Shown here: positions 413-38,033 of the stretch, piece by piece
Position numbering within the stretch: position 1 is the stretch's first letter
Layout: the number at the start of each line of letters is the position of its first letter
Source of the DNA: a virus
IMG/VR virus record: IMGVR_UViG_3300033144_006803
Coordinates: 1-38,359 of that record
Direction: 5' to 3' (one strand)
DNA length: 38,359 nt
Notes under the pieces: generated by a model
What the model was told of the DNA's origin: nothing
Seen by the model: the letters and a program-made list of their open reading frames with translations, nothing else
Database searches by the model: none
Translations under genes and position numbers: made by a program

Positions 413-2536
413 ATGATTGGTCGCAACGTCATACAAGTAATAATACAGGGGCACGACCAAGCGAGCCCCGCCTTCGCGAGTGCGGGCGCGGGCGCGAAGA
501 AAGCGGGCGGGCTCTTCTCGCTCGCGGGCGTGGCAATCGCGGGGGCGGCTCTTGCGATTGCATCGGCGACCAAGAAGTCAATCGACGCGGCGAACGCTCT
601 CAATAAAGAGATGGCAAACGTCGGTACGTTGATACCCGAGCAAGCCGGGCGACTTCTCGAACTACGTGACGCGGTGCAGGACTTGAGCGTCAGCACGAAC
701 CGTTCGACTATCGACATCGCGCAGGGCTTGTACATGACAATCTCGGCACTCGGCGACACGGCCGAGTCGATGAAGATACTCGACACCGCCTCGCGCTCGG
801 CGACCGCCGGGCTCGCAACGATACCCGACGCGGTGCGACTCATCACCGGGGTCATGAAGGGGTACAACGACGTGTCGGCGGTAGCGGCCGAACGCGTCGC
901 CGACCTTGCCTTTGAAACGGTGCGCCTCGGTGTTACCACGTTCCCCGAGTTGGCCGACTCAATGGGGCGCGTGATACCTCTCGCGGCGGCAATCGGCGTT
1001 TCACAAGAAGAACTCTTCGCATCGTACGCGACACTCACCGGCGTCACCGGTAACGCGGCAATGGTATCGACGCAAATGTCGAGCATCATGCGCGGGCTCT
1101 TGAAGCCGACCGACGACATGAAACTCGCACTCTACAAACTCGGGCACGCGACGGTCGAGGACATGATTGCAACGCGCGGCCTCAACGGCGGCATGCGCGC
1201 GCTCATCGCGACGACCGACGGCACGAGCAACTCACTCGCGAAACTTTGGGAGAACGCGCGCGGTTATCCGGCTCTCTTCGCGCTCACCCGAGAACAGGCC
1301 GACACGTTCGACTTTAAACTCACCGAAGTGACGAACAGCATGGGCGCGCTCGACCGTGCCTTCGAGGCGCAAACCGAAGGCATCAACAAGCACAAGGTCG
1401 CGCTTGAGAGATGGCAAAAAGCGAGCGGCGTCATGCACGAGACAATCGGCGAGGAACTCGTGCCGGTGCTCGGCGAGATGGCCGAGGTGCTCTTGCCCGT
1501 CGTGGAACTCATGACGAAGTTCGTCAAATTGGCCGCGAAGATTAAAGAAATACGCGAGAAGACCGAGCCTTCAGAGATTATCAACAAGAAGATGCTTGAG
1601 GGGGCGGTGTGGCTTCTCGAAAAATTTAACAAGATGACCGACGTCGCGCCGAAGAAAAAGCCGAGCCTTGACCCCTCGACTCTCGACATGCCGGTCGGTC
1701 AGCAGTTGACCGACGCGACGAACCTCACGGCCGCCGAGAAAGCGTCGCGGGCGGCGAAGCAACACCTCTTCGACCTCAAGCAAGAGAACGCGATGCTCGA
1801 ACAGATAACATTGCAGGCGACGAAGAACGTCGAAGAGCGGCAAAAGTTGCTCAAGATTGAGGCCGACATCGCGGGTTACAACGAGCGGCAAGCCGAAGCG
1901 GTGCTCGCCGCGCGCACGTTCTCGTTCGACATGATTACCGACAAAGAGACAGAGCAACCCCTTGAGCAAAGCGGCACATATAAGGCGATGGAAGACACTC
2001 AAGCGATGCTTGAGTCGATGACGCTCACAAGTGCCGACGCGGCTCACATCATGAGCGACAACTTTGCGATGTTCGCCGACAGCGTCGTCATGGGGTCGGC
2101 CTCGGTCGAAGAGGCGTTCTCGCAGATGATGAAAAGTATATTTTCACAGTTCATTAGCACGGTCATAAAAATGATGGCTTTCAAGGCGTTGTTTAAAATA
2201 TTCGGCGGGCCTCTCGGCGGGTTGGTTCCGATGAACGAGGGCGGCGAAGTCATCGGTGCGGCGAACGGGCTCGAAGTCATCGGCGGCACACCCGGCCGCG
2301 ACTCGGTGCCCGCGCTCATCGGCGGCGGCGAGGCGGTCGTGCCTTCGCCTCTTATGTCTCGTATGCGAAACTTTCTTGACCGTGCCGACGCGGGTTTTGC
2401 CGGGGGCGGCGGCGGGTCGGTAAACTTGTTCACTCTCTTCTCGACGGGCACCGAGGTCGAGCGCGTCGTCATCGGCGACTACCTCGCGCGCATCGGCGAG
2501 GGGTACGCGCCCGACGTTATCGAAGGGACTTTATAA
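413..2536 (+). CDS. Tail tape measure protein
   Basis: The 707-aa protein sets tail length and is carried inside the tail tube. The N-terminus has a hydrophobic Ala/Gly-rich stretch (about residues 28-55). Residues about 60-300 match the TIGR01760-type tape measure core: repeated short helices, a TLIPEQAGRLLELRDAVQDL stretch, and later SMGRVIPLAAAIGVSQEEL. A second hydrophobic helix lies near residue 580, and the end is Gly-rich (GGTPGRDSVPALIGGGEAVV), as is common in this family. It is the longest tail gene and follows the chaperone. The start at 413 has AAAGG upstream. The modest length suggests a tail of roughly 100 nm, which is inference. Confidence 0.92.
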   Translation: MIGRNVIQVIIQGHDQASPAFASAGAGAKKAGGLFSLAGVAIAGAALAIASATKKSIDAANALNKEMANVGTLIPEQAGRLLELRDAVQDLSVSTNRSTIDIAQGLYMTISALGDTAESMKILDTASRSATAGLATIPDAVRLITGVMKGYNDVSAVAAERVADLAFETVRLGVTTFPELADSMGRVIPLAAAIGVSQEELFASYATLTGVTGNAAMVSTQMSSIMRGLLKPTDDMKLALYKLGHATVEDMIATRGLNGGMRALIATTDGTSNSLAKLWENARGYPALFALTREQADTFDFKLTEVTNSMGALDRAFEAQTEGINKHKVALERWQKASGVMHETIGEELVPVLGEMAEVLLPVVELMTKFVKLAAKIKEIREKTEPSEIINKKMLEGAVWLLEKFNKMTDVAPKKKPSLDPSTLDMPVGQQLTDATNLTAAEKASRAAKQHLFDLKQENAMLEQITLQATKNVEERQKLLKIEADIAGYNERQAEAVLAARTFSFDMITDKETEQPLEQSGTYKAMEDTQAMLESMTLTSADAAHIMSDNFAMFADSVVMGSASVEEAFSQMMKSIFSQFISTVIKMMAFKALFKIFGGPLGGLVPMNEGGEVIGAANGLEVIGGTPGRDSVPALIGGGEAVVPSPLMSRMRNFLDRADAGFAGGGGGSVNLFTLFSTGTEVERVVIGDYLARIGEGYAPDVIEGTL

Positions 2537-7593: not shown

Positions 7594-7675
7594 GCCCGAG
7601 AGCAAAAGGCCGGCGCTTGCAACCCCTTCCCTCTATTGGCTTTCCCGACTAAATAACTTTTCTTTGTTTTACCTC

Positions 7676-7704
7676 TTGACATCATGATGCCATGAGAGTA
7701 TACT
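7676..7704 (+). promoter_or_regulatory. Early promoter P1 with operator-like spacer
   Basis: TTGACA at 7676-7681 and TATACT at 7699-7704 are separated by 17 bp, a consensus sigma70 promoter, with an AT-rich tract upstream (7650-7672). The spacer carries TCATGATGCCATGA (7682-7695), a variant of the perfect dyad found in P2 and P3 with both arms kept. A protein bound there would block RNA polymerase. Confidence 0.9.
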
Positions 7705-7726
7705 ATGTATAGAAGTTAAGAGAGAC

Positions 7727-7736
7727 GCCGGGAGGC
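7727..7736 (+). promoter_or_regulatory. P1 leader hairpin with GGGA loop
   Basis: GCC-GGGA-GGC lies about 16 nt from the predicted transcript start, 22 nt before the start codon of the first early gene. Equivalent hairpins sit in the P2, P3 and P4 leaders. On its own it is weak; its support is the recurrence at all four promoters. Confidence 0.55.
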
Positions 7737-7758
7737 AACGAACCGAAAGGGGTACGAG

Positions 7759-8115
7759 ATGAACGACGAGAAGAGAATCACCGAAGAGAAGAAAGCCGAA
7801 ACGATGAGGTTCGCGAATCACCTCGGGCACACCGACGTCAACCCGTTCGAGATAGTGCGACGCGTCTCGGCGAAGACGCTCGACATCAAGCCGATGACCG
7901 CCGTGAAAGACCCGAACTTCAAGCCCGAGTTTGTGCCCGGCGGCTTCGCGGCAGTCTGCACAAATCAGTACCGGCAAGAGTGGCTCATCACGTCGAACGA
8001 AGACGCGCCGGTCAAACGTATCAGACTTCACAAAGACGGTTGGTTCAAGGGCGCGCACGGCGAGCGGTATCGCATCGCCGAGCACCCGGTCAAGTTTTAC
8101 GACTACAACTTTTAA
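7759..8115 (+). CDS. Conserved-type small early phage protein, unknown function
   Basis: The 118-aa protein is the first gene after promoter P1. It has a charged N-terminal helix and a C-terminal strand-rich part with YRQEWLITS, RIRLHKDGWFKGAHGERY and the end KFYDYNF. I have the impression that this C-terminal pattern recurs in small proteins of unrelated environmental phages, but I cannot name a family. No membrane segment, Cys cluster or catalytic motif. The start has AAAGGGG 8 nt upstream. First position suggests a role soon after infection, which is inference. Confidence 0.75.
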   Translation: MNDEKRITEEKKAETMRFANHLGHTDVNPFEIVRRVSAKTLDIKPMTAVKDPNFKPEFVPGGFAAVCTNQYRQEWLITSNEDAPVKRIRLHKDGWFKGAHGERYRIAEHPVKFYDYNF

Positions 8116-8131
8116 GAGAGCACGAAAACAA

Positions 8132-8151
8132 GGGGCGGCACTCGCCGCCCC
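8132..8151 (+). other. Intercistronic hairpin before the 8167 gene
   Basis: Perfect 8-bp stem GGGGCGGC / GCCGCCCC with a 4-nt loop (ACTC), directly before the ribosome binding site GAAAGGGGTCG. There is no T-tract, so it is unlikely to terminate transcription; it may set mRNA end stability or separate translation units. Confidence 0.7.
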
Positions 8152-8166
8152 GAAAGGGGTCGAATA

Positions 8167-8466
8167 ATGATACAGGTTAAAGGCATCAAGTTGAGGCTCG
8201 AAGACTTCGCGAAGTACACCGAGGCCGTCGCGCAACTCGTCGACGCCGGTGTCGAGCACACCGCGACCGACACCCCGGCCGAGCGTGCCGTCATCGTCGT
8301 CGACGACAAGCGGCTCGCGTATCACGCCGTCGGTCGCGCGATGTTCCCCGGCACTCGCAAGCCGACGATGTGCGTCACGCTCAAGGTCGAGTTCAAGGGC
8401 GTCACGTTCCCGAAGTTTATTTTCCTTTACGGCGTCGCGGGCGTCGAGTACGAGGGGGTCAAGTAA
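8167..8466 (+). CDS. Hypothetical early protein, 99 aa
   Basis: A small soluble protein with a short N-terminal helix (LRLEDFAKYTEAVAQLVDAG) and a strand-rich C-terminus (VTLKVEFKGVTFPKFIFLYGV). No family recognised. The start is set by GAAAGGGGTCG directly upstream. The stop overlaps the next ATG, so the five genes up to 9548 form one tightly packed unit. Confidence 0.7.
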   Translation: MIQVKGIKLRLEDFAKYTEAVAQLVDAGVEHTATDTPAERAVIVVDDKRLAYHAVGRAMFPGTRKPTMCVTLKVEFKGVTFPKFIFLYGVAGVEYEGVK

Positions 8467-8663
8467 TGAGAGTTGAGAAGACGTACACGAAGGGCGAGTC
8501 GCTCGGGTTCAAAGTCAACGGGCAAGTATGGCGCGCGGTCTACGTTCGCGCGCTTCGAGTCGGGTCGAACGTATGGGCGCACGAGGTCGAACTCTCGGCG
8601 AGTGGTCGCCGGGTCGTCGCGACGCCGCGCCGGGTCGTCGAACTGAAAGGGGTCGAGGCATGA
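8466..8663 (+). CDS. Hypothetical basic early protein, 65 aa
   Basis: Small, basic and beta-rich (GFKVNGQVWRAVYVRALRVG), without Cys or membrane helix. It overlaps both neighbours (ATG at 8466 on the upstream stop; its own stop overlaps ATG 8660). Codon use matches its neighbours, which supports it as real. No function can be given. Confidence 0.65.
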   Translation: MRVEKTYTKGESLGFKVNGQVWRAVYVRALRVGSNVWAHEVELSASGRRVVATPRRVVELKGVEA

Positions 8664-8893
8664 AGAGCATGACGGTCATCACGGTCGAAGAGGCGAGCGA
8701 CTTCACGGTCATCACGAACGCCGAAGAGCGCGGCGAGTTCGAGGGGTACGCGTACGACGTTTACGGTCGCGACGGGCGTTGCATCGGCGGCGGGTTCGTG
8801 TACGACCTCGGGCAAGGTGGCGACGGGCTCGCGGTCGCGCTCGGCCGCCGGGTCGCCGAGACGCACCTCGCGAAGAAAGCGGGGGGCGAGTGA
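8660..8893 (+). CDS. Hypothetical early protein, 77 aa
   Basis: Start ATG 8660 is preceded by GAAAGGGGTCGAGGC and overlaps the upstream stop. The product starts MKSMTVITVEEASDFTVITN and has a central strand pair (YDVYGRDGRCIGGGFVYDLG) with a C-terminal helix. A longer in-frame form would begin at 8528 but would cover the upstream gene, so I reject it. No family recognised. Confidence 0.65.
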   Translation: MKSMTVITVEEASDFTVITNAEERGEFEGYAYDVYGRDGRCIGGGFVYDLGQGGDGLAVALGRRVAETHLAKKAGGE

Positions 8894-9105
8894 TGAGAGC
8901 GGCAACGGTCAAGCAATTCAAGGAGTGGTTGAGTGAGGCCGCGCCGAAAGGTCGCTCGATGAGAGAGTACGTCGAGAAGTTCGGCGGGCTCTCGCCTCGC
9001 GAGATGATAGCGCGAGCGAGCGACGAGAAGTTCGAGGTCGAGGTCAAGTTCACGGGCAACAAACACCGCGCGAGAATGTACGCGCGAGAAAGCGGGCGGT
9101 CATGA
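8893..9105 (+). CDS. Hypothetical early basic protein, 70 aa
   Basis: ATG 8893 overlaps the upstream TGA. The protein is mostly helical and basic (MRAATVKQFKEWLSEAAPKG; GLSPREMIARASDEKFEVEV; a Lys/Arg-rich end), which would suit nucleic acid binding, but no motif confirms that. Stop overlaps the next ATG at 9102. Confidence 0.65.
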   Translation: MRAATVKQFKEWLSEAAPKGRSMREYVEKFGGLSPREMIARASDEKFEVEVKFTGNKHRARMYARESGRS

Positions 9106-9548
9106 AGGTACTCACGAAACTCGTCGACGGGCAAGCGAGCATCGCACTCGGGGGCGGGTACGTCGTAAGCATCATTCCCGACTCACCGGCGGCGTCACGC
9201 GACGCGAAGGGCAAGGGCGAAGTCACGACGGCCGCGCTCGTCGACGTCGCGGTGGTACTCATCGACGAGGTCGCCGACACCGAAGAGTTCGTCGACGTTC
9301 GCACGCTCGGGCTCGAAGAGTACGGGCACACGTACAACGACGCGACCGCGCGCTTCGCCGGGGGCGAAGAGGTCGGTCACATCATCGCGGCCGTCACTCG
9401 GCTCGCCGTCGCGAAGCGCAAGCGCGACGACCTCGCCCGCGTGCGCTCGGCGTTGAGTTCGTCGTCGTGCTCGAAGACGCGCGCGGTTCGCGCGTCGCTC
9501 GACAGGCTCGCGCGTGACGCGGGCGTCGAGGCCGACCCCGAGGCGTAA
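9102..9548 (+). CDS. Hypothetical early protein, 148 aa
   Basis: A soluble alpha/beta protein with an N-terminal strand hairpin (SIALGGGYVVSIIPD), a central hydrophobic core and a basic, Ser-rich C-terminal helix pair (KRKRDDLARVRSALSSSSCS). No known family or catalytic motif. It ends the P1 operon, followed 11 bp later by a hairpin. Confidence 0.7.
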   Translation: MKVLTKLVDGQASIALGGGYVVSIIPDSPAASRDAKGKGEVTTAALVDVAVVLIDEVADTEEFVDVRTLGLEEYGHTYNDATARFAGGEEVGHIIAAVTRLAVAKRKRDDLARVRSALSSSSCSKTRAVRASLDRLARDAGVEADPEA

Positions 9549-9559
9549 CAGCCCTCAAG

Positions 9560-9590
9560 GCGGGCGATTCTCACCGAGAGGGTCGCCCGC
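9560..9590 (+). terminator. Hairpin at the end of the P1 operon
   Basis: Perfect 8-bp stem GCGGGCGA / TCGCCCGC around a 15-nt loop, followed by a mixed pyrimidine tract (CTCTTTGCCCCTCTTC) rather than a clean T run. Its position just before promoter P2 supports a terminator, probably weaker than that at 7550. Confidence 0.6.
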
Positions 9591-9646
9591 AACTCTTTGC
9601 CCCTCTTCACGATACAAACTCTTTTTACTTTTATTTCATTTGGGGG

Positions 9647-9675
9647 TTGACATCATGACGTCATGAGTGTATAAT
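9647..9675 (+). promoter_or_regulatory. Early promoter P2 with perfect 14-bp operator dyad
   Basis: TTGACA (9647-9652) and TATAAT (9670-9675) are 17 bp apart, a full consensus. The spacer holds TCATGACGTCATGA (9653-9666), a perfect 14-bp inverted repeat. A T-rich tract lies upstream (9618-9640). It drives the ArdC-like gene. Confidence 0.93.
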
Positions 9676-9696
9676 GTAATTAGCAATCAAGAAGAC

Positions 9697-9707
9697 GCCG
9701 GGAAGGC
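9697..9707 (+). promoter_or_regulatory. P2 leader hairpin with GGGAA loop
   Basis: GCC-GGGAA-GGC in the leader, inside the AGACGCCGGG box shared with P1 and P3, about 20 nt downstream of the -10 box. Confidence 0.5.
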
Positions 9708-9734
9708 ACACACTCAAGCGACGGGGGTCGAGAG

Positions 9735-10661
9735 ATGACGAAGGCAAAGAAGAGTTGGAAGAAGATGACGAAGGCCGAGAAAGACGCTTACCGCATCGAG
9801 CGTGACGCCGAGAATAAAGACCGCATGAACGAAGCGCTCGCGAAGGTGCTCGACAAACTCGAAAGCGGCGACCCGCTCAACTACATCAAGAACACTATCG
9901 ACGTGCCCGAGGGCGTCAAGTTGCCGCCGTGTTGGGGGTACTCGTTCCTCAACCGTCTCATCATCGCGGCGAACGGCACGAGCGACGCGCGCACATTCAA
10001 ACAGTGGCGCGACGTCGGGCGCAAGGTCATCAAGGGCGAGCGCGCTCACATCTTCGTGTACGAGCCGGTGACCATTCTCAAGAAGGTCGACGATGAGTCG
10101 ACGACCTTCAAGCCGATAGTAAAAGACGACGGCATTTATCGCGCTATCGTCATCGGGTTCAAACTCTCGGCGCGCTTCGCTATCGAACAGACCGACGGCG
10201 ACCCGGTTGACACGCCGGTCGCGACCGTTCCCGAGTTCCCGATGATTGAAGTCGCCCGCCGCATGGGGCTCACGATTGAGGCGTCGTTCTTCGCCGGTCG
10301 CGAGTACGGCTCATACTCACCCGCCGACGAGCGCATCATTCTCAAGTCAACCGACGCGACGACGTTCTACCACGAAGTCGGTCATCACCTTCACGGCGCG
10401 ATGCTCAAGGCCGAGGGCAAGTCGCTCGTGCTCGGGCAAGACGAAGAGCAAGAGATAATTGCCGAACTCATCGGCGGGTGCCTTGCGAACATCAACGGTG
10501 TCGCATGGAAGACCGAGAACATCGCCGCATACATCAAGAATTACAACGGCGACACGAAGAGAGTCACGTACCTCTTCCCGGTCGTCGAGGCCGCGATAAA
10601 TCTCTTCACCGAGAAGGCCGAAGAGTTCGGGCTCATCGAGCACGACGAGGCGGCCGCGTAG
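9735..10661 (+). CDS. ArdC-like antirestriction protein (ssDNA-binding domain plus zincin)
   Basis: The 308-aa protein has the ArdC layout. The N-terminal domain (about 25-160) contains a PCWGYSFLNRLI segment and a TFKQWRDVGRKVIKGERAHI stretch, as in ArdC ssDNA-binding domains. The C-terminal domain is metallopeptidase-like with FYHEVGHH (H213, E214, H217) and a later acidic helix EEQEIIAELIGG giving E244 as likely third ligand. ArdC proteins of plasmids and phages protect incoming DNA against host restriction. It is alone behind promoter P2, fitting immediate early expression. The start has GGGGGTCG upstream. The function is inferred from domain order. Confidence 0.85.
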   Translation: MTKAKKSWKKMTKAEKDAYRIERDAENKDRMNEALAKVLDKLESGDPLNYIKNTIDVPEGVKLPPCWGYSFLNRLIIAANGTSDARTFKQWRDVGRKVIKGERAHIFVYEPVTILKKVDDESTTFKPIVKDDGIYRAIVIGFKLSARFAIEQTDGDPVDTPVATVPEFPMIEVARRMGLTIEASFFAGREYGSYSPADERIILKSTDATTFYHEVGHHLHGAMLKAEGKSLVLGQDEEQEIIAELIGGCLANINGVAWKTENIAAYIKNYNGDTKRVTYLFPVVEAAINLFTEKAEEFGLIEHDEAAA

Positions 10662-10679
10662 TCGACAGGATAAAAGACA

Positions 10680-10702
10680 GGGGGCGCGAGAGTCGTGCCC
10701 CC
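10680..10702 (+). other. Intercistronic hairpin after the ArdC-like gene
   Basis: GGGGGC / GCCCCC stem with an 11-nt loop, 19 bp after the stop and just before a GAAAGGGGTCACG ribosome binding site. No T-tract. Confidence 0.55.
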
Positions 10703-10729
10703 GACACCGAACGAGAAAGGGGTCACGAA

Positions 10730-11467
10730 ATGAAAAAGGATTACACACTCATCAAGGGCGGCGACTTCGCGAAGACGGTCGAGGTCACGAAGAGCGAGGT
10801 CAACGAGCACGGTCACACCGAGCGCGTCACGAGCAAAGTCAACTTCAAGTTCACCGGCGGCAAATACTCGCGGTATTATCGCCGGGTCGACGAGTGGGCA
10901 ATCGACGCCGACGACGGTGCGCGGTACTTCAACAATGACGAGTGGTATGTCGCGAAGGGCGGGCACACCGTCGCCGGGGGCATCATCGAGTATTGCAAGA
11001 GAGACAACCTCTCGCCGCACCCGGTCGCGGTCGAGTGGCGCGAGTCGCTTCGCGGGTATCGGGTCGAGTTCGTGTTCACGTACGGCGGCAACGACGACGA
11101 CACGCCGACGCTCGTCGCGAACGTGCTCACGCGCGACGGCCGCAAGTGGTCGCCCGTCGCGACGCTCAAGACAGGCGTCGAGATGAAGGCATGCTCGCCC
11201 GCATACGAGCACGAGTTCAAGGGCAACGAGTTCGCGAAACTCATCGCCGCCGAGGTCGCGAAGCACGAGACGCGCAAGCGATACCTCGTTGCCGAAGACG
11301 CGAGCGACCTCGGCGTCATCGTCTTCGACGGCGAGACGAACTTCGTCGTCGCGACGTTTCACTATGAGCACACGCGCACGAGTCGCACGAAGACCGACGC
11401 GAGTCGCCGCGCTCATCACTTCGCGAGCCTCATGAACACGACGCCGCACATCGCCGTCGCGAAGTAA
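10730..11467 (+). CDS. Hypothetical early protein, 245 aa
   Basis: A large soluble, charged protein beginning MKKDYTLIKGGDFAKTVEVT with many strand-forming stretches (YRVEFVFTYGGNDDDTPTLV; YLVAEDASDLGVIVFDG) and a basic end. No recognisable catalytic motif. ATG 10730 is preceded by GAAAGGGGTCACGAA. A longer in-frame version from 10478 would overlap the ArdC-like gene and is rejected. Co-transcription with the ArdC-like gene suggests a possible role in early host takeover, which is inference only. Confidence 0.7.
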   Translation: MKKDYTLIKGGDFAKTVEVTKSEVNEHGHTERVTSKVNFKFTGGKYSRYYRRVDEWAIDADDGARYFNNDEWYVAKGGHTVAGGIIEYCKRDNLSPHPVAVEWRESLRGYRVEFVFTYGGNDDDTPTLVANVLTRDGRKWSPVATLKTGVEMKACSPAYEHEFKGNEFAKLIAAEVAKHETRKRYLVAEDASDLGVIVFDGETNFVVATFHYEHTRTSRTKTDASRRAHHFASLMNTTPHIAVAK

Positions 11468-11479
11468 CTCACACGAACC

Positions 11480-11504
11480 GAGGGCGGGCACCTCGCTCGC
11501 CCTC
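11480..11504 (+). other. Intercistronic hairpin before the 11520 gene
   Basis: GAGGGCG / CGCCCTC stem with an 11-nt loop, immediately before GAAAGGGGTCACG and the ATG. Same position as the hairpins at other early junctions. Confidence 0.5.
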
Positions 11505-11519
11505 ACGAAAGGGGTCACG

Positions 11520-12029
11520 ATGATAGTCAAGTTTATATACGCATCAAGAGAGGCATACCGCCGCGAGTCGTGCGGGCTCGCCGAGAAGTTCAAGGGCACA
11601 ACGATGACGGTCGTCGAGCATCACGAAGAGCCGGTCGACGTATCGGTCGCCGACTACATGCTCGACTCGGTCGGCACGGTCACGGTCGCCGGGGTCGCGA
11701 GCATACCGCGAGCGCACGCGGGCGAGTTCCTCGTCGAAGACAGGGGCGGGCACTATCGCGTCTTCCGTTCGTTTGCCGGGTTCACGGTCGAGGCCGGGGC
11801 ACCGCCCGAGGCCGAGCCCCCCGCGCCGAAGTACCCGGTCGAAGTCTTCGCGAACGGCGAGCGCTTGCACGTCGACCTCGACGTCGACCCGGTCGGCGAC
11901 TTTTATGACGACGACTATCGCGGCGACAAGCAACGCGAGGCCGTGCGCGAGGGGATACGCTCGGCGGTCGCCGCGCTGTATCCCGGTACGATTACCGTCG
12001 CGCTTCCCGGCGAACTTCCCGAGGGGTGA
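11520..12029 (+). CDS. Hypothetical early protein, 169 aa
   Basis: Begins MIVKFIYASREAYRRESCGL, then strand-rich segments, a proline-rich linker at about residues 97-108 (PPEAEPPAPKYP), and an acidic C-terminal domain (LHVDLDVDPVGDFYDDDYRG). The linker suggests two domains. No family recognised. It is the last gene before the terminator at 12049-12089. Confidence 0.65.
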   Translation: MIVKFIYASREAYRRESCGLAEKFKGTTMTVVEHHEEPVDVSVADYMLDSVGTVTVAGVASIPRAHAGEFLVEDRGGHYRVFRSFAGFTVEAGAPPEAEPPAPKYPVEVFANGERLHVDLDVDPVGDFYDDDYRGDKQREAVREGIRSAVAALYPGTITVALPGELPEG

Positions 12030-12048
12030 ACGCCGAGAGGCCGCGACA

Positions 12049-12089
12049 GTAAAGGGCGAACCCCGCCTCGCGCGGGGTTTTTCCTTTAC
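12049..12089 (+). terminator. Rho-independent terminator before P3
   Basis: Inner stem AACCCCGC (12059-12066) with GCGGGGTT (12072-12079), 5-nt loop, running into TTTTT (12078-12082). An outer stem GTAAAGG / CCTTTAC (12049-12055 with 12083-12089) can close around it. Separates the P2 and P3 operons. Confidence 0.85.
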
Positions 12090-12141
12090 CGCCGGGCTTT
12101 TCGGGGGGTCAAAATAAATCTTTTTATTTTCCCTTTACCCC

Positions 12142-12170
12142 TTGACATCATGACGTCATGAGTGTATACT
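12142..12170 (+). promoter_or_regulatory. Early promoter P3 with perfect 14-bp operator dyad
   Basis: TTGACA (12142-12147), 17-bp spacer, TATACT (12165-12170). The dyad TCATGACGTCATGA occupies 12148-12161, exactly as in P2. A T/A-rich tract lies upstream (12110-12135). The bases just after the -10 (TGTGTGAAGGTCAAGTAAG) are identical to those after P4. Confidence 0.93.
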
Positions 12171-12196
12171 ATGTGTGAAGGTCAAGTAAGAGAGAC

Positions 12197-12208
12197 GCCG
12201 GGGACGGC
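12197..12208 (+). promoter_or_regulatory. P3 leader hairpin with GGGA loop
   Basis: GCCG-GGGA-CGGC, a 4-bp stem with the same loop as in P1 and P4. The added G-C pair relative to P1 keeps pairing. Confidence 0.55.
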
Positions 12209-12229
12209 ACAACAGAAAAGGGGTTCGAG

Positions 12230-13264
12230 ATGAGAAACGGAACGACAAAGACGACGACGCACAACGGCAACGGGTTCGACTTCGACATCACAACGACGAA
12301 GAGGGTCAACCCCGACGGCACGCACGCCGGGTACATGCTCGCGATTGAACGCACCGACGTCATGCACATGCTCGTCGAGGGCAAACTCATCATGCGGCTC
12401 ACCCGCGACGAGGTCGTCGAGCACGGCAAGGTCATCTTGAAGAACAGCAACATCGTCACCCGCAATTGCGCGAGGCTCGACGGCACCCGTCGCGTCGTCA
12501 TTATCTTCGTCGTCGCGAAAGTCAATCACGCGAACGAAGTCATCGGGTTCGACTACGCCGTCGACCATAAGGGCGAGCCGGTCATCACGAGGGGCATGAC
12601 CGCCGAGACGGACATCGAGCGAGTCGTCGACATCGCGCACAACGACGCGAGCGACTACTTCGGCAAGTGCATCGACATCGACCCCGCGATGCTCAAGGGC
12701 ACGGCGGTACACACCGAGGTCGTCACGCTCGACGCACGCAACTACAACGGCGCGGTCGCCGGGCTCGACCTTCGGCTCGCTTACGCGACCGAGAAGTACA
12801 ACGCGCTCACCGAAGAGGTCGCCGCGCTTCGCGAGATTGAGAAGGCGCACCCGGTCACGCGCAACCCCGAGCGCATCAAGTCGCTCAAGGTCGAGGCCGA
12901 GGCGTGGGCTCACGAGGTCGCGACAATCGACGCCGCCCTCGGGTTCATCAAAGACACGGTCGACGCGAAGGGCGACAAGGTCGAGGTCGAGAGGGGCACG
13001 GCCGACACGCTCATCGCGAAGAGCAAGGCGGCCGACCGCGCCGAGTCGCTCGCACGCGCTCGCATCGAAGACTTGAACGCGCACCTCGACAAGATTGTCA
13101 TGACGCTCGACTCGCTTCGCGAAGACAAGGCCGCCATCAAGGGCAAGGCCGCGAAGTTGACCGTCGCCGCTCGCATGACCGAACTCAAACAACTCGCCGC
13201 CGACAAGCGCGCCGAGTGTGCAATCCTGAAGAGCATCGTCGCCGAGATTACCGGCCGCAAGTAA
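12230..13264 (+). CDS. Hypothetical early protein with C-terminal coiled coil, 344 aa
   Basis: The N-terminal half (about 1-165) is strand-rich (HMLVEGKLIMRLTRDEVVEH; RRVVIIFVVAKVNHANEV). The C-terminal half (about 180-340) is almost entirely helical with heptad-like repeats and many Glu, Ala and Lys residues, predicted as coiled coil. No membrane segment and no enzyme motif. The arrangement suggests an oligomeric structural or inhibitory protein, but the function is unknown. Ribosome binding site AAAAGGGGTTCGAG. Confidence 0.7.
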   Translation: MRNGTTKTTTHNGNGFDFDITTTKRVNPDGTHAGYMLAIERTDVMHMLVEGKLIMRLTRDEVVEHGKVILKNSNIVTRNCARLDGTRRVVIIFVVAKVNHANEVIGFDYAVDHKGEPVITRGMTAETDIERVVDIAHNDASDYFGKCIDIDPAMLKGTAVHTEVVTLDARNYNGAVAGLDLRLAYATEKYNALTEEVAALREIEKAHPVTRNPERIKSLKVEAEAWAHEVATIDAALGFIKDTVDAKGDKVEVERGTADTLIAKSKAADRAESLARARIEDLNAHLDKIVMTLDSLREDKAAIKGKAAKLTVAARMTELKQLAADKRAECAILKSIVAEITGRK

Positions 13265-13281
13265 ACACGAACACGAGACGA

Positions 13282-13306
13282 GGCCGGGGGTCACGAGCCC
13301 CCGGCC
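13282..13306 (+). other. Intercistronic hairpin before the winged-HTH gene
   Basis: Perfect 9-bp stem GGCCGGGGG / CCCCCGGCC with a 7-nt loop, followed by GGGAAAGGTCGAACGATG. One of the strongest stems in the window; no T-tract follows. Confidence 0.7.
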
Positions 13307-13321
13307 GGGAAAGGTCGAACG

Positions 13322-13615
13322 ATGACACTCGAAGACTTAAAACGCAACGCGCTTTCCATTATCGCCGACGAGATGAGAAGCCCCGGCGGCGCGACGGGTC
13401 GCTTCATCGCCGAAGAACTCGGCGAAGACCCCGCAAGGGTTCGCCGGGTGTGCAAGGCGCTCGCCGCCGAGGGTCGCATCACCGCGACGCCGCGCAAGCG
13501 ATACGACCGGCAAGAGATACGTTCGGGCTTTCCTCAATTCGGCGGCGCGGGCGTCGTGCTTCGCCGGTTCTACGTGTACGAGATTGCCCCCGAAAATAAA
13601 AATGAAAAAAGATGA
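13322..13615 (+). CDS. Winged helix-turn-helix DNA-binding protein
   Basis: The 97-aa protein fits a small winged helix: first helix LEDLKRNALSIIADEM, second TGRFIAEELGE, recognition helix DPARVRRVCKALAAEG, then wing strands RITATPRKRYDR. It resembles phage and archaeal wHTH regulators. Promoter P4 lies 8 bp after its stop. It is one of three candidates to bind the operator dyads in P1-P4; the others are at 15528 and 20582. The DNA target is inferred. Confidence 0.7.
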   Translation: MTLEDLKRNALSIIADEMRSPGGATGRFIAEELGEDPARVRRVCKALAAEGRITATPRKRYDRQEIRSGFPQFGGAGVVLRRFYVYEIAPENKNEKR

Positions 13616-13623
13616 GATACCTC

Positions 13624-13652
13624 TTGACATCATGACGTCACCCGTGTATACT
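13624..13652 (+). promoter_or_regulatory. Early promoter P4 with degenerate operator
   Basis: TTGACA (13624-13629), 17-bp spacer, TATACT (13647-13652). The spacer has TCATGACGTCA followed by CCC, so the right end of the dyad is lost. The upstream tract is A-rich (13595-13612) and overlaps the end of the winged-HTH gene. The altered half-site suggests weaker or different repression. Confidence 0.9.
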
Positions 13653-13677: not shown

Positions 13678-13689
13678 GCTCGGGAGAGC
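13678..13689 (+). promoter_or_regulatory. P4 leader hairpin with GGGA loop
   Basis: GCTC-GGGA-GAGC: the loop is the same as in P1 and P3, but the stem sequence differs with pairing preserved. This compensation is the best evidence that the hairpin is functional. Confidence 0.6.
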
Positions 13690-15527: not shown

Positions 15528-15674
15528 ATGAAGAAAAGAGTGCCGATACAGTTGACCGAAGACGAGCACACCGAGGTGAGGCGGCTCGCGTTCGCCGAGA
15601 ACATCTCGATGAGCGAGTACATCATGCGAGCGGTTCGCCTCAAGGTCAAGCGCGACGTGAAGGCGGGCAAGTAG
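15528..15674 (+). CDS. Ribbon-helix-helix DNA-binding protein (Arc/MetJ type), 48 aa
   Basis: The whole protein is one ribbon-helix-helix unit: strand KRVPIQLTEDEHTEVRRLAF followed by the turn and second helix SMSEYIMRAVRLKVKRDV. Such proteins dimerise and bind short inverted repeats through the strand. An imperfect operator-like sequence, TCATGCCATCA at 15680-15690, lies 5 bp after its stop. This makes it a good candidate to recognise the promoter dyads. ATG 15528 is preceded by AAGGGGGG. Target inferred. Confidence 0.75.
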   Translation: MKKRVPIQLTEDEHTEVRRLAFAENISMSEYIMRAVRLKVKRDVKAGK

Positions 15675-15820
15675 TGACATCATGCCATCAAAATAATTGC
15701 GCGCTTGACTCGACTCTCGCGGGTCGAGTAACTTCGGGGAAGCGAGACTTCTCACGGCCGCCGCCCCCCGGCGAGTCGCTTCGCAAGGGCGGGCGGCGGT
15801 CACTCATGAAAGGGCGAACG

Positions 15821-20581: not shown

Positions 20582-21076
20582 ATGGGCGGCAAGCATTTGA
20601 AGACGAGGTTGAAAGAAAAGATGGAAGAACTCGGGCTCAACAATGTCGAGGCGGCGCGCGTGATGAGCGTGCACCCGACGACGGTCGCAAAGATGCGCTC
20701 GGGCGGCGTGCCGATAATGCCGGGCACGAAGACGATGAGAGCGTACAAGTTTTTCATGACGCTCGACAAAGAGAAGGCGACGGCGGTGCTCATGTCGTAC
20801 AAGTACGAGAGCGAGCCCGAGAAGCGAGAGGTGAAGCGCGAGCCCTTGCCTCTCTTCGCGTCGGTCGAGCGTGCGGCAAGGGGCGACAGTACGGCGGCGA
20901 CGTTCGCACTCGCCGATGCAATCAACCGGCTGTCTCTCGTGCTCGAAGACCGGCTCGTACCGAACACGGTGACAATCACGTCGGTGCTCAAGGGCGACGG
21001 CGAGCACGACTCGCGCCCCGGCTTCGAGAGAGCCGAGGCCGAGGTCGAAGAGATGGCGGGGGGCAACCCGTCATGA
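20582..21076 (+). CDS. XRE/Cro-type helix-turn-helix protein, 164 aa
   Basis: The N-terminal 60 residues form a Cro/CI-like helix-turn-helix: LKTRLKEKMEELGLNNVEAA then RVMSVHPTTVAKMRSGGVPI. The rest has a conserved-looking helix pair (FFMTLDKEKATAVLMSYKYE) and an acidic tail. No peptidase motif for self-cleavage is seen. It could control early promoters or the early-late switch; the target is not known. Ribosome binding site GAAAGGGGTCGAACG. Confidence 0.7.
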   Translation: MGGKHLKTRLKEKMEELGLNNVEAARVMSVHPTTVAKMRSGGVPIMPGTKTMRAYKFFMTLDKEKATAVLMSYKYESEPEKREVKREPLPLFASVERAARGDSTAATFALADAINRLSLVLEDRLVPNTVTITSVLKGDGEHDSRPGFERAEAEVEEMAGGNPS

Positions 21077-27255: not shown

Positions 27256-27285
27256 TTGATGACAGGCAAGGGCTTATCGTATAAT
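27256..27285 (+). promoter_or_regulatory. Candidate late promoter
   Basis: TTGATG (27256-27261), 18-bp spacer, TATAAT (27280-27285), in an AT-rich context. The -10 is perfect but the -35 is only partial, fitting a promoter that needs an activator. It would transcribe the packaging, head, tail and lysis genes round to the terminator at 7550. The leader before the large terminase is about 250 nt. Confidence 0.6.
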
Positions 27286-27543
27286 GCAATTACATTGCCG
27301 AGAGTTTAAAGTGTTGACAATGAAAGCGATAGCAAACGCCGGCCGTTCGGCGGGCTCGCTTTCCTGTCACCCTGTCATGCTTCTCGCCGGTCACGGCACG
27401 ACCCTCGGCACCGCCCCCGCCGCCCGGTTCGCCCGGCGCTTCCCGGCCGTTCGCCGGGGGTGTTCGAGAATCACTCGGCCGCCTGTCTTCGACAGGGGCG
27501 ACCCTCACCCGAAAGATTTGCCCGGTTTTGAAACGGGGGCATC

Positions 27544-29082
27544 ATGACATCATCGCCCGTGCAAGTGGAACTTGAAGAGGCCGAGGTCGAGCGGTTGCTT
27601 GACAAGGTGAGTGTGCCGTCGGGGTTCGTTGAAGAGGGGGTCGAGTTCGTCGACGGGAAGGTCGTTCTTGAGGGGTGGCAAAAGTACATCGTTGACACTA
27701 ATGACCCGCGTGTGATTTTGAACAAGGCGCGGCAGACGGGGTTCTCTTTTGCGGTCGCGTGTCGCGGGTTTGCGCGTTGCTATTTGTCGCCCGCGAACGG
27801 GTACACTCTTGCGTTGACGTCGTTCAATCTTGAAGATGCTTTCGAGAAAATCAGATATATTAATCAACTTGATGACGGGTTGCCGAGTGGTGAGAGGCTC
27901 AAGCGCATCGTCGACTCGAAGACGAGCATCGAGTACGAGAACGGCAACCGAGTCGTGAGCATGTTCACCCCGAGGGGCAAGCATGCCGAGGTCGTGATTG
28001 ATGAGATGGCAATCATGCAAGACCCTCGCCGGGTGTATCAAGCGGCGGTCGGTATGACGGCGAGAGGCGGGGGCATCATCGTCGGGTCGAGCCCCTTGTC
28101 GCAAGCCGGTCAATTTGCCGACATATGGAAAGCCGAGGGCGGCAAGTTCCTCAACTTCAAGCGCATCGCGGTGCCTTTTTGGAAGAGTGCCGCGTTGTGT
28201 CTTGACATCGTTGCCGCGACGAACGCGTACGACACGGGTGTGCCTCTCGAAGAGATTGTATACGGGTACGGGCGCGAGACTATCATCGAAGCGTTCGACT
28301 CGATGTTTGACGAGGACTTTCGCACCGAGTTTTGTTGTCAGTGGATTGACGGGTCGAGTGCGTTCTTGAGTTGGGAACTCGTCGATACTTGTAGCAATGC
28401 CGACCGGATTGTCAAGCGTGTGACGATGAACCGCAACGAGGGCTTCGCTCGGGTGCAAGAACTCGTCGAGGGGTTGCGCTCGATTGAGGGCGATATATAT
28501 ACCGGGTTTGATGTCGGCCGTCGCAAGGACAAGAGCGAGATAATGCTCGGGGCGTTGCGAGACGGCAAGGTCGGCGAGGTCGCACACATCACCCTCGACC
28601 GAACCGAGTTCGAGGTGCAAGAGCGAGTCACCGACTTGATACTCTCGCTTGACCGTGCGCGTATAGTGTGCATCGACGAGACGGGGCTCGGCATGGAACT
28701 CGCCGAACGCGGTGCGAAGAGGCACGGGTCGCGAGTGCAGGGCGTCACGATGTCGGTCAAGACGAAGCCACAAATCGCGAACAACCTTCGCGTGATGATG
28801 GAAACGAGCAAGGTCGAGTTCGGTCGTGACCGCGAGACGATGATACAATTGCACTCGGTCAAGCGACAGGTACGACCCGGCTCGAACACGGTCACGTACG
28901 ACGTCGACCGGAACGAGAAGCACCACGCCGACCGGTTCATCGCGGCCGGGCTTATGTGTTGGGGTGCCGCCGACAAGTTGCAGGGCACCGAGCCCGCCGT
29001 GTACGTGTTCGACTTTGCCGACGAGGCGCGCGAGATGCAAGCGTCGCGCCTTGACGAGATGATACTCAACGAAGAGATTTGA
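27544..29082 (+). CDS. Terminase large subunit (Mu gp28-like)
   Basis: The 512-aa DNA packaging motor has an N-terminal ATPase with a deviant Walker A (K61-ARQTGFS, residues 62-68), Walker B VVIDE (150-154) and coupling motif VGSSP (180-184). A C-terminal RNase H-like nuclease has GFDVGRR (D323), CIDETG (D378/E379) and NEKHHADRF (D463). The RQTGFS form of Walker A and the spacing are typical of the Mu gp28 group. ATG 27544 lacks a strong ribosome binding site; GGGGGC is 5' of it. The first 30 residues are acidic. Confidence 0.88.
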   Translation: MTSSPVQVELEEAEVERLLDKVSVPSGFVEEGVEFVDGKVVLEGWQKYIVDTNDPRVILNKARQTGFSFAVACRGFARCYLSPANGYTLALTSFNLEDAFEKIRYINQLDDGLPSGERLKRIVDSKTSIEYENGNRVVSMFTPRGKHAEVVIDEMAIMQDPRRVYQAAVGMTARGGGIIVGSSPLSQAGQFADIWKAEGGKFLNFKRIAVPFWKSAALCLDIVAATNAYDTGVPLEEIVYGYGRETIIEAFDSMFDEDFRTEFCCQWIDGSSAFLSWELVDTCSNADRIVKRVTMNRNEGFARVQELVEGLRSIEGDIYTGFDVGRRKDKSEIMLGALRDGKVGEVAHITLDRTEFEVQERVTDLILSLDRARIVCIDETGLGMELAERGAKRHGSRVQGVTMSVKTKPQIANNLRVMMETSKVEFGRDRETMIQLHSVKRQVRPGSNTVTYDVDRNEKHHADRFIAAGLMCWGAADKLQGTEPAVYVFDFADEAREMQASRLDEMILNEEI

Positions 29083-29099: not shown

Positions 29100-31274
29100 A
29101 TGAAAGAATTGACCTTGCGTTTGCCGACGAGAGACGACGTTCGAGCGTTTCGCAATAAGGTCGGTGCGCGTATGCTCGGCGTGAGGTCACTCGCAGACCT
29201 CGCGAGCATCATCTCGAACAATATGAATTACGGCACGCACGGCTCGGGCGGCGGTGACTCGCGCTTCGTGTATTATCACAACTTCAATATATGGGTGTAC
29301 GTGACGACCCGCGTCGTGCTCGACAACGCGATGCGACTCGCGGCGAGCGGCGCCGGTGTGTATCGCGAGAAGTACGAGCGCGGGTTGCGTAAGCGTGAGC
29401 GCGTCGAGACGTCTCACCCGGCGAGCATGCTCATCGAGAGCCCGAACTCGGCGCAAACCTTTCCCGAGTTCGTCGAAGAGGTCTTGCTCAACGATATGCT
29501 CTCGGGCATGTTCTACATTAAGAAAGAGATGAGCATACGACCGCGCGAGATGTGGAGTCTTCGAGCGACGCGTTGCCGGGTGATACCGGGCACCGGCAAG
29601 GTGCTCGACAAGAATAAGCGGCCGATGTATTACGACGGTTTTGTGTACGACGAAGACAAGCCGAGCCGGGTCATCTTCTCGCCCGACCGTATCTCGTACG
29701 GCAAGCGCGCGAACCCGATGAACGAGTACGTCGGCATGAGCCCGTTCTTTGCGGCGCGCAATTCTATAAATATTTTTCTCGCCGCGCAAAAATACAACAT
29801 GAGTTTTTACGAGAACGACGCGACGCCCGGCGGGTATCTGCAAACCGACTTCGCCTTTTCGTCACCCGAGCAAGCGCAAAAATGGGCGCGGGTTTGGTTC
29901 AAGATGTACGGGGGCGGCGCGAACCGGCACAAGGTCGCGGTGCTCGGCAACAACCTCAACTTCAAGACCCTCACCCCGTCGCATAAAGACATGATGTTCG
30001 GCGAGCAGATGAAACAGGTGCGCGACGAGATAGCGGCCGCCGGGGGTGTGCCGTCGATATATCTCAACGATACCGACAAAGCAAATTATGCAAACCTTCG
30101 CGAGCATGAAAAACTTTTATGGCGTCGCACGATGATACCGGTGACCGACCGCGTGAAGTACCGCATCAACCGCGACATCATGACCGAGTTCGACGAGGGC
30201 GACGGGTGGCGGTACGTTCTCGACCTCGACCTTTCAGTCATCGAGGCGTTGCAAGAGGACATCGACAAGCAAGCGAACGCCGACGCCCGCAAAATATTCT
30301 CTTCGGTGCGTACGCCCGACGAGATACGAGAACGCGACGGGCTCGCACCGTACGAGAACGGTATCGGCTCGGTGCCGGTGATACAGGGCGCGATGGCGAA
30401 ACTCGAAGACGTCGGTGCGGTGTACGCGAAGACACCGCCGCCGGAAAAAGGACAAGCGGCATCGGGGCGTCGCTCGTTACCGGCGGCGTCATATAAACAC
30501 GTTTACGCGAACGAAGACGAGAGGCGTGCGCTTTGGGAGTCGACCCGCGACCTCGTCGAAGACTACACCGACGACTTCAAGGTTCTGATTGCCAAAGCGT
30601 TCGCGATGTTCGAGGCCGAGATGCTCGACAACCTCGACGCGGCGAAGGGCGTGAAGGCACCGCTCGACGCCGACGCGATAGTGTACGACCTTGAGCACTC
30701 GCGCGCAATACTCACGAAGTCGGCGCACCCGTTTTATCAGAACGCGACCGAGCGCGGCGGCGAGCGCGTCATCGAACTCGTCGACTCGCCGGTGCCCTTC
30801 GACATGACCGACTCGAACGTCGTGAAGTTGCTCGACGCTCGCAAGCAACGGTTCGCCGAGCGCATCATCGAAGGCAAGTGGAAGACGATGAAGACGTCGC
30901 TCGAAGCGGGCATCAAGAACAGTGAGACGATACCCGAACTTGCCTTGCGCGTTGAGGCCGAGATGGGGCGCGTCATCAACAACGCGGCGACGATAGCACG
31001 CACCGAGGTCTTGCCGTCGTTCCACGAGGGACAACTCAACGGCATGAAGCAAAGCGGCGTCGTCAAGGGTAAAGAATGGTTGCCCGCGTACACGGCGATG
31101 ACTCGACCGGGGCACTACAATGCCGAGCAAGTCGTCGCGATTAATGAAGCGTTTTTTGTAGCACCCGACGCCGCCGGGGCGTACGGTGAAGACTTAGAAT
31201 ATCCCGGCGACCCGAGCGGCATGGCAGAGAATATTATCAATTGTCTTTGCGACATGTTGCCGGTCGTCGAGTGA
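29100..31274 (+). CDS. Portal protein fused to gp7/MuF-type head morphogenesis domain
   Basis: The 724-aa protein carries a phage portal domain (about 20-420: NFNIWVYVTTRVVLDNAMRL, HPASMLIESPNSAQTFPEFV, MSPFFAARNSINIFLAAQKY, AAAGGVPSIYLND) followed by a SPP1 gp7 / Mu F-type minor head domain (about 450-724). The latter ends with the usual ARTEVLPSFHEGQLNGMKQS ... PGDPSGMAENIINCLCD. Portals form the dodecameric DNA entry ring; gp7-type proteins enter the head with the DNA. The two are normally separate genes. I chose ATG 29100 because AAGGGGCGG precedes it; TTG 29079 overlaps the terminase stop. Confidence 0.85.
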   Translation: MKELTLRLPTRDDVRAFRNKVGARMLGVRSLADLASIISNNMNYGTHGSGGGDSRFVYYHNFNIWVYVTTRVVLDNAMRLAASGAGVYREKYERGLRKRERVETSHPASMLIESPNSAQTFPEFVEEVLLNDMLSGMFYIKKEMSIRPREMWSLRATRCRVIPGTGKVLDKNKRPMYYDGFVYDEDKPSRVIFSPDRISYGKRANPMNEYVGMSPFFAARNSINIFLAAQKYNMSFYENDATPGGYLQTDFAFSSPEQAQKWARVWFKMYGGGANRHKVAVLGNNLNFKTLTPSHKDMMFGEQMKQVRDEIAAAGGVPSIYLNDTDKANYANLREHEKLLWRRTMIPVTDRVKYRINRDIMTEFDEGDGWRYVLDLDLSVIEALQEDIDKQANADARKIFSSVRTPDEIRERDGLAPYENGIGSVPVIQGAMAKLEDVGAVYAKTPPPEKGQAASGRRSLPAASYKHVYANEDERRALWESTRDLVEDYTDDFKVLIAKAFAMFEAEMLDNLDAAKGVKAPLDADAIVYDLEHSRAILTKSAHPFYQNATERGGERVIELVDSPVPFDMTDSNVVKLLDARKQRFAERIIEGKWKTMKTSLEAGIKNSETIPELALRVEAEMGRVINNAATIARTEVLPSFHEGQLNGMKQSGVVKGKEWLPAYTAMTRPGHYNAEQVVAINEAFFVAPDAAGAYGEDLEYPGDPSGMAENIINCLCDMLPVVE

Positions 31275-36858: not shown

Positions 36859-37062
36859 ATGAGACTTGAATACGTTGGGCGTTTTTCGGCGGTGAGTGTC
36901 GACGGTGTCGGGCGCGTTGCGCGCGGCAAGGCCGTCGACTTTCCCGACGCCCTCGGGGAGTCGTACCTCAAGCGACACCCGAACGAGTGGAAGAAGGCCG
37001 CGCCCGCGAAGGCAAGCGGCTCGGGCAATAAAAAGGGCACCGGCGAAAGGGGTAAGAAATGA
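36859..37062 (+). CDS. Small basic structural protein, 67 aa
   Basis: The first 45 residues form a compact domain (RLEYVGRFSAVSVDGVGRVA; DALGESYLKRHPNEWKK), and the tail is Lys/Gly/Ser-rich. Located between terminator and tube genes, so probably virion-associated, but no family is known to me. Ribosome binding site AGAAAGGGGCGACG. Confidence 0.6.
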   Translation: MRLEYVGRFSAVSVDGVGRVARGKAVDFPDALGESYLKRHPNEWKKAAPAKASGSGNKKGTGERGKK

Positions 37063-38033
37063 CGGGGCTCGGATATAATTCATGGGTATCGTTCTCGGAA
37101 GAGAGCGTGTACGGAACGCCGACCGGGACGGACGAACAGTATGTCGAGATTGTCGAGGAAGGGCTCGGTCTTGAGATGGCCGTCGAGCCTCGGTCGTCTC
37201 TTCACGGCGCGAGTCACCGCAAGACTCTCACCGGCGTCAAGAAAATCGGCGGCGACGTCAAGGGCGAGATGCTTTACGAGGGGTGGCTCTTGCCGATAAA
37301 GCACGGCATGGGCGGGTACGCTTTTGCCGCCGACTCACCGGTCGAAGACGCGAACCTTCACACGTTCACCCTCACCGACGCGTTGCCGACCGGGCTCTCG
37401 GTCGAAGTGAGCAAGGGCAACGTGCCGACCGGCGACGTGTTCTTGTACGCGGGTTGCAAGGTCGACGCGCTCGACTTCCAGTTCACGACCTCGCAGATAA
37501 TGAACATCGCCGTGTCGCTTCTCGGGCAGAGCGAGACGACCGACGGCGCGGCAAGCGGCACGCCGTCGTACCCCGACGACTACCCGGTGTTATGGCGCGA
37601 GTGGAACTCGACGATGACCTTTTGCGGCGAGTCGGTGAGCGAGTTCGTCGGCGGCAACATCAAGGTCGAGAATAGTCTCTCGCGCGACCGCTTTCTCATG
37701 CACGACACGCTTCGCTCGCCGGTGAGAGGCGACCGGCGAAACGTCGGCGGGTCAATCAAGATGGAGTTCGCCGACCTTGCGCTCTATAGCAAGTACACGG
37801 CGGGCACGACGGGCACGATGTCGTTGACCTTTCAGTCGAGTTATTTCATCACCGGCTCGACGCCGTTCTCGATGACCTTCACGTTGCCGAAGGTGCAACT
37901 CTTACCGACGCCGACGCCGAAAGTGTCGGGCGCGGGCGTCATCGAGATGGACTTGCCTTTTATCGCGTTGCATGACGGCGCGACGACCGACGCGTTGATA
38001 GTTGCTATCACCTCGGGCGAGGCGACACTTTAA
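37059..38033 (+). CDS. Major tail tube protein
   Basis: The 324-aa protein starts 4 bp before the end of the previous gene. The N-terminal FSEESVYGTPTGTDEQYVEI opening, and ordered strand-rich segments (DVKGEMLYEGWLLPIKHGMG; KVDALDFQFTTSQIMNIAVS; NIKVENSLSRDRFLMHDTLR) to the closing MDLPFIALHDGATTDALIVA, match siphophage tail tube proteins. Such proteins stack as hexamers around the tape measure. Position before the chaperone confirms it. Confidence 0.85.
   Translation: MTGLGYNSWVSFSEESVYGTPTGTDEQYVEIVEEGLGLEMAVEPRSSLHGASHRKTLTGVKKIGGDVKGEMLYEGWLLPIKHGMGGYAFAADSPVEDANLHTFTLTDALPTGLSVEVSKGNVPTGDVFLYAGCKVDALDFQFTTSQIMNIAVSLLGQSETTDGAASGTPSYPDDYPVLWREWNSTMTFCGESVSEFVGGNIKVENSLSRDRFLMHDTLRSPVRGDRRNVGGSIKMEFADLALYSKYTAGTTGTMSLTFQSSYFITGSTPFSMTFTLPKVQLLPTPTPKVSGAGVIEMDLPFIALHDGATTDALIVAITSGEATL

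Follow-up and report, generated by a model that had tools for sequence, protein, structure and literature searches.

That several early promoters can share one operator is already known from phiC31, L5 and SSV1. The Streptomyces phage phiC31 has several early promoters with the same conserved inverted repeat, which is bound by one repressor. In SSV1, several early promoters and the promoter of the ribbon-helix-helix (RHH) protein F55 itself have tandem ATAGATAG repeats to which F55 binds, and RHH dimers bind multiple operator sites side by side in a cooperative manner (PMC5569661). In archaeal rudiviruses, one regulatory sequence is common to many early genes (PMC11065993). Here we describe the virus record IMGVR_UViG_3300033144_006803 (38,359 bases; this whole stretch is referred to as the window), in which four promoters, P1 to P4, share a sequence within the spacer between their -35 and -10 hexamers. 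The shared sequence has the properties expected of an operator and is best read as tandem 8-bp boxes, and the candidate repressor is a 48-amino acid RHH protein encoded behind P4.

An earlier note on this DNA had described four promoters with TTGACA and TATAAT or TATACT hexamers 17 bp apart, and the sequence reads exactly as claimed (Table 1). P1 to P4 were the best four promoter-like sites in the stretches scanned, with 12/12 or 11/12 matches, while the next best reached 10/12. A search of the whole window for TTGACA-N17-TATAMT with up to two mismatches returned 5 matches versus 0.81 expected, the fifth having two mismatches and lying within a gene. The 25 bp located 5' of each -35 hexamer are 68-76% AT in a genome of 60% GC. 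Since P1, P2 and P3 each follow a strong hairpin or terminator, and P4 starts nine bases after the end of the last P3 gene, four transcription units can be distinguished.

The spacers of sigma-70 promoters normally vary freely. Comparison of P2 and P3 showed identity at 17/17 positions of the spacer, 11/25 upstream and 8/21 downstream; the values for P1 and P2 were 14/17, 13/25 and 10/21. The spacers are conserved to the same degree as the hexamers, while the flanks have diverged. When the 14-bp dyad TCATGACGTCATGA, found in the spacers of P2 (9653-9666) and P3 (12148-12161), was searched for in the window with up to three mismatches, 9 matches versus 1.64 expected were obtained, and no shuffled sequence reached 9. 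An extended -10 element as the reason for this conservation was ruled out because the TG motif is absent. The likeness of the spacers could also be a mere remnant of promoter duplication, devoid of regulatory meaning. The four promoter regions align over about 57 nt, and P3 and P4, which are identical at 21/21 positions downstream, look like a more recent copy. However, the flanks of P2 and P3 are near chance identity while their spacers are identical, and the genome includes an operator-like copy without a promoter at 15675. Duplication alone is therefore insufficient, and we regard this explanation as very improbable; the spacer appears to have been selected, as expected for an operator. P4, despite its recent kinship with P3, has the right arm of the dyad changed from TGA to CCC. 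These results indicated that the P1-P4 spacer is very probably a regulator-binding site. They also agree with the earlier proposal that a single regulator could silence all early operons, in that the spacers are under selection and the site is present at all four promoters heading the early blocks.

The shared dyad that had been proposed in the spacers is indeed perfect in P2 and P3, but it is broken in P1 (center) and P4 (right arm), and the site is better described in a different way. Extension of the dyad leftward into the -35 hexamer uncovered head-to-tail 8-bp boxes, TGACATCA followed by TGACGTCA, and then a partial third, TGAGTGTA. The box consensus TGACRTCA was set from P1-P4 before scanning the genome, and the expectation was obtained from shuffled genomes. 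The scan identified a fifth operator-like site (TGACATCATGCCATCA) that adjoins the TAG stop codon of the RHH gene, and a weak sixth site over the terminase start codon that may be due to chance. Two non-promoter sites scoring at least 14/16 were thus seen versus 0.08 expected. In a control where 16-mers were slid along the whole promoter, matches of 14/16 were found elsewhere solely in the tandem-box register and in the register one base later. Outside the promoters, the 14-bp dyad matched the genome with up to three mismatches only at chance level. The tandem boxes are preferred over the single dyad because only the tandem reading predicts extra genomic sites. The graded differences among the promoters that had been noticed before are real: box 2 is altered in P1 and box 3 is lost in P4.

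Three candidate DNA-binding proteins are all encoded behind P3 or P4, and each would therefore regulate itself. The 48-amino acid protein (MKKRVPIQLTEDEHTEVRRLAFAENISMSEYIMRAVRLKVKRDVKAGK), the product of the fourth gene behind P4, matched the PHROG Arc-like repressor profile (E 0.0024) and, below threshold, the Pfam NikA-like/RHH_1 profiles. Its AF2 model (pLDDT 78) has extended residues 1-10 and helices at residues 11-24 and 28-47; the strand is unformed in the monomer model. The top PDB fold match was the CopG/DNA complex 1b01, followed by other RHH proteins (Arc, AmrZ, ParD). The model and the fold matches agree with the RHH layout of an N-terminal strand segment and two helices. Repeated or symmetric boxes at regulated promoters, as expected of an RHH regulator, are found at P1-P4, and the location of the gene behind P4 would have autoregulation built in. 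No relatives of this protein were found in plasmids.

Alternatively, the shared site could be the 14-bp dyad, bound by one of the other two candidates in the manner of Aca proteins, which are helix-turn-helix (HTH) proteins that repress the early anti-defence operon encoding them through an inverted repeat in its core promoter. Aca inverted repeats sit inside the core promoter (PMC9410906), and so does the dyad of P2 and P3. The 20582 protein, with an XRE-type HTH, matched the PHROG transcriptional repressor profile (E 0.0013) and Pfam HTH_3 (E 0.0038, under the cut-off). The 13322 protein had a winged-helix layout in its AF2 model (pLDDT 68), MarR/ArsR fold matches with weak E-values and sub-threshold Pfam matches, and its gene occupies the last place of the P3 operon, which is usual for aca genes. 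Neither protein matched a named family in general profile scans, which had no Aca models among them. The ArdC-like gene behind P2 also suits this explanation; being of an early-gene type, it fits shut-off by the RHH protein as well. Against it, the dyad yields no further sites above chance and is disrupted at P4, where the first two boxes are intact. We consider Aca-like control an appreciable but minor possibility. The tandem-box reading favors the RHH protein over the 13322 and 20582 proteins, and on the basis of sequence the RHH protein is the best candidate repressor of P1-P4.

From the promoters, the selected spacer, the boxes, the fifth site and the gene order, all read directly in the DNA, and from the predicted RHH fold, we infer how binding, the identity of the binder, timing and grading could combine. 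P1-P4 would act as very strong immediate-early promoters, from which polymerase with the host sigma factor would give a strong early burst. The operator, made of tandem boxes that begin inside the -35 hexamer, would fill the spacer. As the CopG/Arc-like RHH product of the P4 unit accumulates, its dimers could occupy adjacent 8-bp boxes and keep RNA polymerase off the promoters. All early operons, including that of the RHH protein itself, would then be turned off together, a negative feedback resulting in early shut-off during the lytic cycle. Because box 3 is missing from P4 and box 2 of P1 is poor, these two promoters would be less tightly repressed than P2 and P3 and could stay on longer. 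As stated in full, this autogenous early shut-off in lytic growth has, in our estimate, an even chance of being correct.

Searches in other genomes bore on this proposal. No close relatives were found by megablast against GenBank phages, nor when the RecT-like protein and the terminase large subunit (TerL) were each used in single-protein scans. TerL and portal alignment scans found only distant relatives (best identities, 36% and 33%), and neither the dyad nor the tandem site was present in any of the loci fetched around them. The exact promoter pattern had no match in IMG/VR. A relaxed promoter-dyad pattern gave 18 matches there, mostly one recurrent promoter of different sequence, and was set aside as unrelated. 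That recurrent promoter, TTGACAAAATGATYTCATCRTACTAAAAT, has a dyad in its spacer and is found on short viral contigs (4-6 kb in most cases, 10 kb at most, apart from one of 37 kb; loci L088, L089, L092, L094-L096, L098, L099, L101-L105) that are unrelated to this phage. In bacterial genomes totaling 257 Gb, the promoter-operator combination had four matches, about the number expected by chance. A host regulator that binds the spacer, tying early transcription to the state of the host, should be considered in this context, but the near absence of the full combination from those genomes leaves this idea with a very slight likelihood. The sole one of the four matches with both boxes perfect, TTGACATCATGACATCA-N6-TATAAT, is located directly 5' of a 45-amino acid RHH gene in Ruminococcus flavefaciens (L107 4064-4092, minus strand), with tandem TGACATCA boxes in the -35/spacer. 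This match is a suggestive, independent hint for the RHH reading. Family-wide, the tandem motif was found 3 times in 397 genomes, about chance, and the other two sites do not precede RHH genes.

Several observations weigh against RHH-driven shut-off. The Ruminococcus case is single, its RHH protein is only distantly similar to the 15528 protein, and a genus-wide search with it found only itself, so that it is not conserved in the genus. In IMG/VR, the tandem motif had 41 viral-contig matches, none at recognizable promoters or beside RHH genes. The RHH profile matches of the 15528 protein (best E 1.7e-4) are all below curated cut-offs, and its fold-match E-values exceed 0.1, although weak values are expected for 48 residues. 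Box 1 overlaps TTGACA, and promoter constraint thus explains part of its conservation. The site at 15675-15690 has neither a -10 nor a surrounding promoter.

The purpose of the common operator was considered in view of the gene content. Positions 1-114 and 38246-38359 are identical, a perfect direct repeat indicating a circular or circularly permuted genome of 38,245 bp that is complete barring assembly error. All genes that could be assigned are on the plus strand, and the early region spans from 7759 to about 26,000. No tRNAs were found in the genome, and an Rfam search had no match. Among the three purposes that had been offered, early shut-off fits best; for superinfection immunity and plasmid-like lysogeny there was no positive evidence. 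A temperate phage, plasmid-like or integrating, could use the site as an immunity-repressor operator that keeps the early promoters silent in the lysogen. Temperate phages typically have the same operator at all their early promoters, as with the L5 repressor (PMC9283540), F55 acts in this way for SSV1 (PMC5569661), and the record is circular. However, circularly permuted packaging also gives a circular assembly. PHROG and Pfam scans of most predicted proteins found no integrase, whose absence had been remarked before, and no partition or divergent repressor gene. Furthermore, the three DNA-binding candidates, like all assigned genes, are on one strand and lie behind the promoters they would silence, so that none of them could be produced in a lysogen. 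We judge lysogenic use of the operator distinctly improbable. As a separate observation, the promoter-like sequence TTGATG-18-TATAAT (27256-27285; 10/12) stands in AT-rich surroundings ahead of the TerL gene, has no operator boxes and may serve the late genes. Many gene junctions (8132-8151, 13282-13306 and others) have a GC-rich hairpin immediately 5' of a GAAAGGGG-type ribosome-binding site.

The four units share a second feature, absent from the earlier note. A leader hairpin with a GNRA or GNRNA loop is located 22-27 nt after each -10 hexamer. Hairpins with a GGGA or GGGAA loop and a stem of at least 3 pairs occur six times genome-wide, and four of these are the P1-P4 leaders; shuffled leaders had such a hairpin in just 1.4-3.4% of cases. 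The P3 and P4 leaders are identical up to the hairpin, where the stems differ by two pairs with both sides changed, and these compensatory changes point to selection on the RNA. A GNRA-like hairpin in an early leader is also the mark of lambda N-type boxB, and it is conceivable that the leader hairpins are boxB-like. No boxA-like sequence was seen by eye 5' of them, and no N-like protein was recognized in general scans, which included no search aimed at it. A role as 5' stabilizer or translational control site is equally possible. In a two-layer regulon, a single phage protein, or two in sequence, would recognize the DNA operator in the spacer and the GNRA hairpin in the leader, combining repression of initiation with control of elongation, stability or translation; the fifth site, next to the RHH stop codon, would serve as a roadblock and also curb readthrough. 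This extended scheme is tentative and, in our opinion, unlikely.

Table 1. Coordinates of the promoters, operator boxes, hairpins and genes in the 38,359-base window
Feature	Position	Strand	Details
P1	7676-7704	+	TTGACA-17-TATACT; spacer TCATGATGCCATGAgag
P2	9647-9675	+	TTGACA-17-TATAAT; spacer TCATGACGTCATGAgtg
P3	12142-12170	+	TTGACA-17-TATACT; spacer TCATGACGTCATGAgtg, same as P2
P4	13624-13652	+	TTGACA-17-TATACT; spacer TCATGACGTCACCCgtg
P1 boxes	7677-7684; 7685-7692; 7693-7700	+	TGACATCA; TGATGCCA (degenerate); TGAGAGTA
P2 boxes	9648-9655; 9656-9663; 9664-9671	+	TGACATCA; TGACGTCA; TGAGTGTA
P3 boxes	12143-12150; 12151-12158; 12159-12166	+
P4 boxes	13625-13632; 13633-13640	+	both perfect; box 3 lost (CCCGTGTA)
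Fifth operator-like site	15675-15690	+	TGACATCA then TGCCATCA; 15/16; 0.007 expected per shuffled genome
Weak sixth site	27537-27552	+	GGGCATCA then TGACATCA; 14/16
AT-rich UP-element-like stretches, 25 bp before -35	7651-7675 (P1); 9622-9646 (P2); 12117-12141 (P3); 13599-13623 (P4)	+	P1, 76%
Terminator before P1	7550-7585	+
Strong hairpin before P2	about 9560-9590	+
Terminator before P3	12058-12080	+
Early block of P1	7759-9548	+
Early block of P2	9735-12029	+
Early block of P3	12230-13615	+
Early block of P4	13712 onward	+
P1 leader hairpin	7727-7736	+	GCC-GGGA-GGC (GNRA loop)
P2 leader hairpin	9697-9707	+	GCC-GGGAA-GGC (GNRNA pentaloop)
P3 leader hairpin	12197-12208	+	GCCG-GGGA-CGGC
P4 leader hairpin	13678-13689	+	GCTC-GGGA-GAGC
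RHH protein, candidate repressor	15528-15674	+	48 aa; fourth gene behind P4
Winged-helix protein, rival candidate	13322-13615	+	97 aa; last gene of P3 unit
XRE-type HTH protein, rival candidate	20582-21076	+	164 aa
ArdC-like anti-restriction protein	9735-10661	+	first gene behind P2; Pfam ArdcN above cut-off; PHROG anti-restriction 1.6e-7
YqaJ-type exonuclease	from 15821	+	early region
RecT-like group protein	from 16658	+	early region
RuvC-like resolvase	from 18321	+	early region
TerL	27544-29082	+	PHROG/Pfam profile scans
Portal/MuF protein	29100-31274	+	PHROG/Pfam profile scans
Protease	from 31286	+	PHROG/Pfam profile scans
Tail tube	37059-38033	+	PHROG/Pfam profile scans
Tape measure	413-2536	+	PHROG/Pfam profile scans

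If autogenous shut-off by the RHH protein is correct, a phage without visible lysogeny genes would use a single operator and a 48-amino acid protein to coordinate every early operon, and the structured RNA tag carried by the same four messages would be part of a compact early-to-late switch. Regulatory sequence would then suffice to list the early genes of this phage, likely including anti-defence genes, an approach already taken with archaeal viruses (PMC11065993). Among the known systems, F55 of SSV1 is also a small RHH protein, and its targets are tandem repeats of 8-bp units situated at its own promoter and several immediate-early promoters or adjacent to them (PMC5569661). It differs in belonging to an archaeal virus with archaeal promoters, in maintaining lysogeny and in its box sequence, whereas the promoters described here are of the sigma-70 type in an apparently lytic siphophage. 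CopG of plasmid pMV158 and Arc of phage P22 resemble the 15528 protein in size, N-terminal ribbon and two helices, and the CopG operator overlaps the -35/spacer; however, both act on few promoters, while this genome has four or more sites. The L5-type repressors of Cluster A mycobacteriophages are likewise single repressors with many sites, in promoters and possibly intergenic (here the site at 15675), but they are two-domain HTH proteins of lysogeny that recognize more than 20 asymmetric 13-bp sites, or stoperators, per genome (PMC9283540); the count here is four in promoters and one or two elsewhere. Aca-regulated anti-CRISPR operons share the strong early promoter, the repeat in its core and the early shut-off of anti-defence genes (PMC9410906), but usually a single operon is controlled, and by HTH proteins. 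Phage phiC31 is temperate, and its repeat and repressor are unrelated to those of this phage. We have not come across another system in which the spacers of four sigma-70 promoters hold a tandem-box operator, the leaders carry a matching hairpin and the candidate regulator is an RHH protein of an apparently lytic phage. Finally, the lytic Geobacillus phage GBK2, a distant relative (portal, 29% identity) with a similar gene order, has the exact dyad TTTACAAAGTAAA overlapping the -35 of two early-region promoters (20067 and 26044; L157). The sequence is different, there are two copies in an AT-rich genome and the statistics are weaker; nonetheless, since GBK2 has a shared dyad of its own, the design, rather than the sequence, may be wider.

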